IMG/VR virus record: IMGVR_UViG_3300027749_000353
Span: 1 to 31,423 of that record
DNA from: a virus
Length of the DNA: 31,423 bases
Strand: one strand, 5' to 3'
In this document: positions 10,034-11,825 of the stretch, piece by piece
How positions within the stretch are numbered: position 1 is the first letter of the stretch
How the letters are laid out: each line of letters begins with the position of its first letter
The notes under the pieces: model-generated
Told to the model about the DNA's origin: nothing
The model's database searches: none
The model's input: the letters and a program-made list of their open reading frames with translations, nothing else
Position numbers and translations under genes: made by a program

Positions 10034-10446
10034 TCTTGCACCATCACATTTGCGCCAGCATCCTCGGCATAAACCTTTTTGATGTGCGCTTCAACAATTT
10101 GCGAATCATCAACATATACAATTCCATTTATTGCGTCTGTAATACTTTTGTAGCAATTATCTATATCCACGCGTTTTGGATATTCCAAACCCGCTAAACA
10201 GGCTTCCTTGCGCCTTTTTGAATAAGAAGGGGGAACGGCAAAGCGTAGGTACAAAAATACAGTTAATGCCCCTTTTAGCGGGTCTGAAGCGCCAATTGCT
10301 TGTCGGGCTTTAAGTGCCACATGAGTTTCGTAATCAATTGTCTTGGCATCGGTGTAAGTTTGCACAAACTGACCGCGCCTGGCAAATCGTGGTCGGCCCT
10401 TTGGCACAGGGTCACCATCAACTGTGAATGTCACTACTAGGCTCAT
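10018..10446 (-). CDS. rusA: RusA-like Holliday junction resolvase
   Basis: The 142-aa product cuts four-way junctions, resolving recombination or replication intermediates before packaging. VPKGRPRF (14-21) is the typical N-terminal motif. RVDIDNCYKSITDAINGIVY holds catalytic candidates D94 and D96 with K100 and D104, and VDDSQ gives D113/D114. These match the RusA pattern (E. coli D70, D72, K76, D91). The start overlaps the upstream stop by ATGA (10443-10446), so it is probably coupled. Confidence 0.93.
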   Translation of the reverse strand: MSLVVTFTVDGDPVPKGRPRFARRGQFVQTYTDAKTIDYETHVALKARQAIGASDPLKGALTVFLYLRFAVPPSYSKRRKEACLAGLEYPKRVDIDNCYKSITDAINGIVYVDDSQIVEAHIKKVYAEDAGANVMVQECDSI

Positions 10447-10663
10447 TTAATACTTTCAGTCGTTGAACAATCAAGGTAGCGAGAGTAGGAAAATCCGACT
10501 TCAGCGCTTTTGACATATACCGAGCGTGGTCGATAGTCGCTGGGTTCATAACCATCAACGCATAGTGGTTCGCCAAATGGTCGACATAAGTCCCCTGTCC
10601 GTTCCAAGGCTTCAGTTGCGCCAGCCACGGACATTCCATCTCTGATTTTGTCAAGGATTGCAT
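10418..10663 (-). CDS. 81-aa alternative-frame ORF overlapping the 79-aa gene and rusA
   Basis: In the +1 frame relative to the 79-aa gene, ATG codons at 10663 and 10639 open a frame to 10418. Its C-terminal half (YVDHLANHYALMVMNPATID, then SKALKSDFPTLATLIVQRLK) has helical, hydrophobically patterned sequence that looks more natural than the competing frame. No clear ribosome-binding site precedes either ATG, and it overruns the rusA start by 29 nt. It could be a true overlapping gene, or the second half of a gene reached by frameshift from the 79-aa frame. Kept as uncertain. Confidence 0.35.
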   Translation of the reverse strand: MQSLTKSEMECPWLAQLKPWNGQGTYVDHLANHYALMVMNPATIDHARYMSKALKSDFPTLATLIVQRLKVLNEPSSDIHS

Positions 10664-10682
10664 GGGCTTCAGATTTCGTCAT
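10443..10682 (-). CDS. 79-aa protein of unknown function
   Basis: ATG at 10682 directly follows the TAA of the 299-codon frame upstream, with a GGAG site 8 nt before it. Its TGA overlaps the rusA start (ATGA). Those two junctions favour this frame. The first 32 residues (MTKSEAHAILDKIRDGMSVA, then ALERTGDL) look helical and protein-like. The rest (DGYEPSDYRPRS, then SAEVGFSYSRY) is less so. A second frame is open across most of this stretch. It may be one gene with a frameshift or two overlapping genes. Confidence 0.55.
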   Translation of the reverse strand: MTKSEAHAILDKIRDGMSVAGATEALERTGDLCRPFGEPLCVDGYEPSDYRPRSVYVKSAEVGFSYSRYLDCSTTESIK

Positions 10683-11586
10683 TTAGGATTCTCCAAGCGG
10701 TTGCTGCACAAAGTGGGACTTGTCCGTTTCCAATGGCTTTAAGTCTGTGTGACCCAGCGGCCAACCCATGAGCCATTCGACCCACATTGGGTTCAGTTTC
10801 CCACCAGCGTGAGTCGCTAGCGAAGGTGTATCCCTGTTGTACTCGCTTGGACTCGCACATTCCTTTGAGTTGTGTGCTGTCGGTGTTGGAAACATTTTGT
10901 CCCTGACCGCTTGGTTGATTGAGTATTGCGCTGGTTGCCCCGATTTCCTTTTGGCAGTCCACAATTCCTGTGTTCCTCTCGCCCCGCAATTCGCATCGGG
11001 CGTTGGCCAACTCTCCATGCGCTTTTTTAAGGCTTTTCTGCTGTTGCTCCCACCATCTAATCCTGTTGTGTTGGGCGTGTGGAAGGTCACCATTCCATCT
11101 GGCAACAATCCAGATTCTGTCCCTCTGATGGTTTGCTCCAATGTTCGCTGCTCCCAGCACTCCCCACCGCGCATCAAACCCCATTGCGGCCAAGTCTGCG
11201 AGAACTCTTCCAAGTCCTCTAGAAGTGAGCATTGGTGAGTTTTCCACGAACGCGTATCTAGGTCGTACTTCGTGAATGATGCGCGCCATTTCTCCCCACA
11301 TTCCGCTTCGCTCTCCGTCAATTCCTGCCCCTTTTCCAGCAGCGGAGATGTCTTGACAGGGAAATCCTCCCGATACGACATCAACAATGCCTCTCCAAGG
11401 CTTTCCGTCAAAGGTTTGAACGTCATCCCAAATCGGGAAAGGCGGGAGAAGTCCGTCATTTTGTCGAGCGCACAATACGCTTGCGGGATAGGCTTCCCAC
11501 TCAACAGCGCAGACTGTTCGCCATCCCAAGAGGTGTCCCCCAAGTATTCCTCCACCAGCACCCGCGAATAAAGCCAACTCATTCAA
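10669..11586 (-). CDS. C5-cytosine DNA methyltransferase (Dcm-like)
   Basis: This is an about 305-aa enzyme that transfers a methyl group to carbon 5 of cytosine. From the TTG at 11586: SAM motif LFAGAGGG (6-13), catalytic GGFPCQDISA with Cys77, the EN motif as ENS (115-117; ENV is usual), QRDRIW (154-159) and the C-terminal RLKAIGNGQVP. The region between about 165 and 265 is the target-recognition part. An upstream TTG at 11619 has no ribosome-binding site. The TTG at 11586 overlaps the upstream TGA (TTGA) and gives the family's usual start (MNELALFAG). GGAGGT lies only 3 nt before it, which is close. A 299-codon second frame overlies the gene. Confidence 0.88.
   Translation of the reverse strand: MNELALFAGAGGGILGGHLLGWRTVCAVEWEAYPASVLCARQNDGLLPPFPIWDDVQTFDGKPWRGIVDVVSGGFPCQDISAAGKGAGIDGERSGMWGEMARIIHEVRPRYAFVENSPMLTSRGLGRVLADLAAMGFDARWGVLGAANIGANHQRDRIWIVARWNGDLPHAQHNRIRWWEQQQKSLKKAHGELANARCELRGERNTGIVDCQKEIGATSAILNQPSGQGQNVSNTDSTQLKGMCESKRVQQGYTFASDSRWWETEPNVGRMAHGLAAGSHRLKAIGNGQVPLCAATAWRILNDEI
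10683..11582 (-). CDS. Possible 299-aa overlapping gene nested in the cytosine methyltransferase
   Basis: In the +1 frame of the methyltransferase a frame is open for 299 codons. Its ATG (11582) directly follows the upstream TGA and has GGAGGT at an ideal 7-nt spacing. Its TAA is directly followed by the ATG of the next gene. The product has ordinary-looking motifs: SRLSRFGMTFKPLTE (46-60), TWPQWGLMRGGECWEQ (130-145), repeated WPTPDA/FPTPTA (192-197, 231-236) and LNPMWVEWLMGWPLG near 263-277. From general knowledge, similar sequence strings are common in phage and bacterial data beside such methyltransferases, but their function is unknown. Part of the apparent conservation could be forced by the methyltransferase motifs in the other frame. 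Confidence 0.5.
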   Translation of the reverse strand: MSWLYSRVLVEEYLGDTSWDGEQSALLSGKPIPQAYCALDKMTDFSRLSRFGMTFKPLTESLGEALLMSYREDFPVKTSPLLEKGQELTESEAECGEKWRASFTKYDLDTRSWKTHQCSLLEDLEEFSQTWPQWGLMRGGECWEQRTLEQTIRGTESGLLPDGMVTFHTPNTTGLDGGSNSRKALKKRMESWPTPDANCGARGTQELWTAKRKSGQPAQYSINQAVRDKMFPTPTAHNSKECASPSEYNRDTPSLATHAGGKLNPMWVEWLMGWPLGHTDLKPLETDKSHFVQQPLGES

Positions 11587-11825
11587 AATACCTCCCCGTC
11601 GTTTTCGGTTTCGTTCCAATGCCTAATAGTCTGAGTAACAGTTTTAGCAACTGTTGGGCGCTTGTAGTCGCTTGGGTTCTTCTCCCATTGATGCTTGGAA
11701 CACTTAGGCTTATCGCCACTCATGTGGACTGACCAACGATTTGGGCAACCAGGCACAGAACACATTAAGCGTTGCATATCGTCAAAGGTAGATTCTTGTT
11801 TAGGGGTTGGTTTTGCGAATGTCAT
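11583..11825 (-). CDS. Small putative zinc-binding protein
   Basis: In this 80-aa product C22, C27, C42 and H45, with H34 between, are arranged as CSVPGCPNRWSVH...PKCSKHQW, which suggests one zinc site. The protein precedes the methyltransferase and follows the replication gene; its start overlaps the replication stop (11822-11825, ATGA). Its TGA lies at the junction where both downstream frames start. A DNA-binding or replication-accessory role is possible but not shown by any known family motif. Confidence 0.7.
   Translation of the reverse strand: MTFAKPTPKQESTFDDMQRLMCSVPGCPNRWSVHMSGDKPKCSKHQWEKNPSDYKRPTVAKTVTQTIRHWNETENDGEVF

Follow-up and report, generated by a model that had tools for sequence, protein, structure and literature searches.

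A conserved reading frame inside a phage C5 cytosine methyltransferase gene is likely to encode the second chain of the enzyme

We conclude that a minus-strand locus in the window, i.e. the whole stretch of DNA that was analysed (the 31,423-base sequence of a virus record), is likely to encode a two-chain C5 cytosine methyltransferase (MTase) in two overlapping frames, a reading to which we assign a probability of about 0.78 in the absence of expression, complex or methylation data. According to this model, one shared ribosome-binding site would start two chains 4 nt apart. The frame-0 product (alpha chain) would represent the catalytic large domain with motifs I-VIII, an unconserved linker and motif X, which would bind AdoMet and carry out catalysis, and the +1 product (beta chain) would be the recognition chain, composed of an N-terminal half encoded opposite the catalytic domain, 1-6 exchangeable 'PTP' cassettes of about 37 aa and motif IX. 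The two chains would associate into one MTase, in which the cassettes would act as target-recognition domains (TRDs), and an enzyme with such a cassette array may modify a number of different restriction sites and in this way shield the phage DNA from several restriction systems. The physical complex, the recognition of DNA by the cassettes and the anti-restriction role are inferred from the anatomy of C5 MTases and are not backed by activity data.

Two overlapping frames behind a shared start region

The MTase open reading frame (ORF; 10669..11619, minus) is open from position 11619, and its first possible start is a TTG. Since the arrangement NTG-A-ATG, i.e. two starts 4 nt apart, is conserved, we placed the likely frame-0 start at the TTG at 11586, which results in a C5 cytosine MTase of 305 aa (10669..11586, minus) that matches PF00145 at 4.7e-30. 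The +1 ORF of 299 aa (10683..11582, minus) begins with an ATG 4 nt past the frame-0 start and is located wholly within the MTase ORF on the same strand. A first-pass annotation, made from the letters of the window, had described a 299-codon frame in the +1 register of a C5 MTase gene, and this description held, as both ORFs are present. The +1 protein matches the PHROG family phrog_1008 at 9e-28, and no significant match was obtained in Pfam, NCBIfam, PADLOC or PDB searches. Neighbours of the locus are RusA, NinB and a DUF1376 replication protein. Past the MTase, two further overlapping ORFs of 81 and 79 aa are found on the minus strand at 10418-10682, and relatives of both occur in the same arrangement in MW202462 (L001), so that a second dual-coding pair is conceivable here.

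In the shared start region (11583..11605, minus), the Shine-Dalgarno (SD) sequence GGGGAGG is followed by TATTTTGA-ATG. The frame-0 start thus reads GGGGAGG-TATT-TTG and the +1 start GGGGAGG-TATTTTGA-ATG, which corresponds to an SD spacing of 4 nt and 8 nt, respectively. Among relatives, 248 of the 253 unique start regions have an ATG as the +1 start, and in 142 of the 206 regions with a detectable SD the latter is located 7-9 nt before this ATG (most commonly 8 nt, followed by 9 and 7), which is just 3-5 nt from the frame-0 start. Of 32 loci that lack a frame-0 start at -4, 30 retained the +1 ATG. In addition, where the second codon of the MTase encodes Asn, it is AAT in 101/101 cases, compared to 32% AAT among the other Asn codons. 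From these features, which rest on sequence alone, we conclude that the +1 frame has a translation start of its own.

These observations also bear on a programmed frameshift, in which frame-0 ribosomes would move to the +1 frame after motif VIII and produce one fused chain. Such an event would join the catalytic domain and the cassettes, and frame 0 indeed stops shortly past motif VIII in four loci (L199, L245, L246, L255). However, a frameshift requires neither an open N-terminal half of the +1 frame nor a conserved ATG with an SD, both of which are observed, and no shift site is shared at the frame-0 stops, where TAG, TAA and TGA occur in unrelated contexts. We consider this explanation very unlikely and rejected it because the frame-0 stops lack a common site.

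Both frames are maintained as coding sequence

The first-pass annotation had argued that the open run in the +1 frame is too long for chance and that a real second gene is favoured over a conserved shadow of the MTase motifs, and it had named stops or neutral change in the +1 frame among homologues as the result that would refute this. We looked for this result and did not find it, and both arguments held. At a locus identical to that of the window (L015), none of 1000 synonymous shuffles within the gene gave a +1 run of 299 codons, the mean being 100. Across 105 non-redundant relatives, shuffling of MTase-synonymous codons predicted 691 stops in the +1 frame and 204 were observed, most of which represent the terminal stop or a stop next to the start. 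When loci were chosen solely by MTase similarity (n = 80), 97.5% had a +1 frame open over ≥85% of the MTase, and the median +2 run in these loci was 47 codons.

Stops are also depleted when the analysis is restricted to the part opposite the catalytic domain. For 115 divergent loci (under 85% nucleotide identity), in which the MTase protein was kept and the synonymous codons of each gene were shuffled, 9 stops were observed in the N-terminal half of the +1 frame versus 342 expected, and 111 of the 115 loci were stop-free in this half versus 5 expected. The +2 control showed an excess of stops over the same half (1032 observed vs 813 expected). The loci share common ancestry and are therefore not independent draws; the shuffles were done within each gene. 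At all distances, +1 proteins were more similar to each other than predicted by the synonymous-shuffle null, and the excess was larger than in the +2 control. It persisted below 35% MTase identity, a range in which synonymous codons have reached saturation (0.34 vs 0.32 expected); the mean z of the +1 similarity was 2.6 in this range, versus 0.6.

After motif VIII the roles of the two frames are swapped. In the linker, the +1 frame encodes 'PTP' cassettes, of which we counted 535 in 284 unique +1 proteins, 1-6 in each protein and with a median length of 37 aa. They fall into 128 clusters, and cassettes of one type are shared by distant phages and occupy different slots, i.e. the cassettes recur and move between slots. 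Known TRDs are about 40 aa long, and the region between motifs VIII and IX of these loci holds several exchangeable domains of about this size. Changes within cassettes at +1 codon positions 1, 2 and 3 had means of 0.22, 0.18 and 0.49, respectively, a pattern seen in 19 of 20 clusters; frame-0 identity within cassettes was mostly 26-50%, and +1 identity was well above this. The +1 frame is accordingly the one under purifying selection in the linker. The first-pass annotation had taken the PTPTA repeats in the MTase linker as pointing to a second gene, and this was confirmed, as 19/20 cassette clusters evolve as +1 coding sequence. Frame 0 nevertheless stays open in the linker, where 17 frame-0 stops were observed versus 455 expected after shuffling of the +1 codons, and 140 of 146 regions were stop-free versus 13 expected; the third frame served as a control and showed 609 versus 581 stops. 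Since stops are depleted in both frames, each chain must stay open where the DNA serves the other chain. Frame 0 is the dominant one in the catalytic part, where change at its third positions is lower than in RusA. This sample is modest, and because the frame-0 control genes provide few pairs per identity bin, the comparison of synonymous rates is merely supportive.

The rival explanation is a shadow ORF, in which the +1 frame is open merely as a consequence of MTase residues and codon bias and no protein is made. Frame 0 dominates the catalytic part, as is also seen in cluster 10 of the cassette analysis, so that some of the +1 similarity is indeed forced. However, codon shuffles that preserve the MTase yield about 40 times more stops than observed (342 vs 9), the +1 start codon and its SD spacing are conserved, and conservation within 19 of the 20 cassette clusters is far higher for the +1 reading than for frame 0. 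In the linker, the pattern of change across codon positions refutes a shadow, which the codon shuffles reject as well, so that we regard it as all but excluded. From these results we conclude that both frames are open beyond chance across the overlap and that selection acts at the amino-acid level in both, as expected of a dual-coding gene; purifying selection covers the whole overlap in both frames. The +1 ORF is thus a real second gene, a statement that is inferred from sequence alone, without expression data.

Probable division of the MTase parts between two chains

In frame 0, motif IV (GGFPCQDIS; 11344..11370, minus), which includes the catalytic Cys, is invariant. The match to M.HhaI is confined to residues 13-175 and stops at motif VIII (HQRDRIWIVA; 11101..11130, minus), and motif X (HRLKAIGNGQVPLCAATAW; 10693..10749, minus) corresponds to predicted C-terminal helices of the large domain. 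A structure model of the frame-0 protein comprises the large domain and, at motif X, C-terminal helices, with residues 197-257 being disordered; a folded recognition domain is missing from this model, and motif IX is absent from frame 0 as well. The window therefore encodes a large chain with motifs I-VIII and X that lacks motif IX, as in M.EcoHK31I.

The +1 proteins carry no catalytic motifs. In the window, the N-terminal half contains a conserved motif (TWPQWGLMRGGECWE; 11151..11195, minus) just upstream of frame-0 motif VIII, and P132, G135 and G140 of this region are invariant. It is followed by cassette 1 (FHTPNTTGLDGGSNSRKALKKRMES; 11010..11084, minus; cluster 0, 69 loci), cassette 2 (WPTPDANCGARGTQELWTAKRKSGQPAQYSINQAVRDKM; 10893..11009, minus; cluster 4, 32 loci) and cassette 3 (FPTPTAHNSKECASPSEYNRDTPSLATHAGGK; 10797..10892, minus; cluster 1, 61 loci), and by a motif-IX-like segment (LNPMWVEWLMGWPLG; 10752..10796, minus). 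The C-terminus of the +1 chain ends with LNPxWVEWLMGxPxGW, and in single-frame relatives this motif is located directly ahead of motif X in the MTase frame, where it aligns to positions 277-320 of PF00145 with weak E values (0.13 and 0.35). The assignment of the +1 motif as motif IX is an inference that rests on position, similarity and these weak Pfam scores only. For the +1 chain, AlphaFold produced a poor model (pLDDT 54), and therefore no fold backs a recognition domain; a sequence match to known TRDs was also not found. An alignment of highly diverse +1 proteins was too variable to be used in scanning.

The distribution of the parts among relatives is informative about their relation. In a census based on regular expressions, 312 loci had motif X in frame 0 and the cassettes together with motif IX in +1. 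Rare relatives deviate from this arrangement. Motifs IX and X are both in the +1 frame, with frame 0 stopping before motif IX, in L246, L255, L270, L285 and the Streptomyces phage Vash (gp32/gp33, motif X being on gp33); both are on the MTase chain, with the cassettes in +1, in L013, L330, ReT1v-2, CheeseTouch and others. The catalytic domain, a cassette and motifs IX and X are found in a single frame in PFR1 and L342, and the catalytic domain, the cassettes and motif IX are in cis with motif X elsewhere in L418 and L360. One cassette ('LLPTPxVNDMGxGKT...') is located in cis in L342 and in the +1 frame in L343. The chain assignment hence varies and the parts list is constant, as expected for chains of one enzyme. 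The first-pass annotation gave no function for the +1 product, and the present data suggest that it is a second subunit of the MTase itself.

Separately, three loci (L012 from Klebsiella phage BUCT711, L173 and L174) have C-terminal halves that are shortened or frame-switched and are apparently intermediates in an exchange of chain ends. Nonsense in the +1 frame was found in L021, L075 and L135, and an in-frame stop in the catalytic region of frame 0 with an intact +1 frame in L155, L192, L203, L243 and L290. Loci with nonsense in one frame could reflect sequence errors or decay; for the latter five, decay, sequencing error and another function of the +1 chain all remain possible and cannot be distinguished.

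Alternatively, the +1 product could be a real protein with a function of its own outside the MTase, such as an inhibitor, a regulator or another anti-restriction factor. In favour of this are the lack of any fold or domain match for the +1 product and its conserved N-terminal half, which has no known role. However, cassettes and motifs IX and X switch chains among relatives, cassettes can occupy the position of a recognition domain on the same chain as the catalytic domain, and frame 0 lacks a folded recognition domain. Furthermore, the cassettes carry a net positive charge (mean +2.4), unlike a DNA mimic. An independent function therefore appears unlikely. Against the two-chain reading, it has to be noted that the conserved N-terminal half of the +1 chain is without an explained role.

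Distribution, precedents and implications

The same +1 relation of the two frames was found in 324/324 first-round loci, which include bacterial genomes of Pseudomonas, Acinetobacter, Burkholderia, Akkermansia and Desulforhopalus, presumably as prophages; extrachromosomal records of Leptospira and Acinetobacter match too. In a distant MTase subfamily (Paenibacillus phage type), 71 of 74 loci have a +1 ORF at p < 0.05, which starts at about codon 55, and the MTase groups of phage N15 gp58 and of Nodularia have one as well, the latter with a +1 run of 207 codons from codon 35 in a run-length test. As the +1 ORF of phage N15 (L333) lies inside gp58, the idea is testable in a standard E. coli system. 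Altogether, the overlap recurs in phages or prophages of Pseudomonas, Acinetobacter, Paenibacillus, Streptomyces, Bacteroides, Akkermansia, cyanobacteria, Leptospira and others.

The records we examined often annotate one frame only, so that either the MTase or its partner is missing. In five GenBank records (PP083311, MG592659, PP438429, OP131587 and PP079418; L003, L008, L325, L326 and L332) the +1 frame alone is annotated, either as 'hypothetical protein' or as an MTase, and the true MTase frame is not annotated though it is present in the DNA. The statement in the first-pass annotation that similar strings occur as free-standing proteins in phages was not supported, since the MTase frame is present in all 324 loci; among the loci examined we found no free-standing +1 gene, and wherever the annotation suggests one, an MTase frame overlaps it. 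The family phrog_1008, named 'DNA methyltransferase', corresponds to the +1 family (84/84 aligned +1 proteins match). Its +1 members lack catalytic motifs despite this name, which was apparently inherited from the overlapping MTase gene.

The nearest precedent is M.EcoHK31I (YGGCCR), a two-polypeptide C5 MTase with motifs I-VIII and X on the large polypeptide and motif IX on the second (PMC3404938), i.e. with the division that is inferred for the window. Its two genes reportedly overlap in different frames. M.EcoHK31I differs in that a single specificity is reported for it and its TRD is predicted to reside in the large chain (PMC3404938), whereas the +1 chain of the window carries a variable cassette array and has nearly the full length of the MTase, in an arrangement that occurs in hundreds of phages and prophages. 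By analogy, the frame-0 linker could be the recognition domain, with the +1 chain providing only motif IX and the cassettes being otherwise employed. This is supported by the published assignment for M.EcoHK31I (PMC3404938) and by the fact that frame 0 remains open through the linker. However, the linker is disordered and poorly conserved, and the +1 reading alone is conserved there, so that we regard this alternative as improbable and favour the cassettes as the putative recognition domains.

In M.AquI (CYCGRG), motifs IX-X are on the small subunit (PMC3404938), which resembles Vash gp32/gp33, L246, L255 and L270, where catalytic and C-terminal motifs are on separate chains. In contrast, the window has motif X on the catalytic chain and hence does not place both IX and X on the small chain, and its genes overlap over nearly their whole length. 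Fragments of M.SssI, M.HhaI, M.BspRI and M.BsuRI complement one another (PMC3404938). In the MTases of temperate Bacillus phages, several recognition domains are arrayed in one chain (PMC12707154; PMC8936443); these multispecific enzymes of SPR, phi3T, rho11 and H2 protect against many restriction-modification systems. Their TRDs are in cis, whereas in the window the array is in the second reading frame, and cassettes were located on the catalytic chain in rare loci only. No sequence match was shown between the window cassettes and the Bacillus phage MTases.

The window locus thus combines the ideas of a split MTase and of tandem TRDs, and its new aspects are the breadth of the arrangement, the location of a cassette array in the second frame and the evidence for selection. 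No paper describing a locus of this type was found in the open-access literature searched, which is not proof of novelty. To our knowledge, few full-length same-strand overlapping genes that are kept over such divergence have been documented in dsDNA phages. On balance, we lean slightly towards the bolder reading that these loci belong to a superfamily of phage C5 MTases that is large and has mostly gone unrecognised. In this reading, nearly the entire gene would be used in two overlapping frames, the second of which would encode an array of exchangeable recognition cassettes, and specificity would evolve through the shuffling of cassettes on one chain, with the catalytic chain being encoded by the same DNA. 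If recognition is indeed the role of the cassettes, the locus would give a readable catalogue of recognition modules, could be used to predict the restriction systems that a phage evades and could provide material for two-part targeted methylation tools. The same premise would also explain the apparent absence of a recognition domain in these phage MTases.
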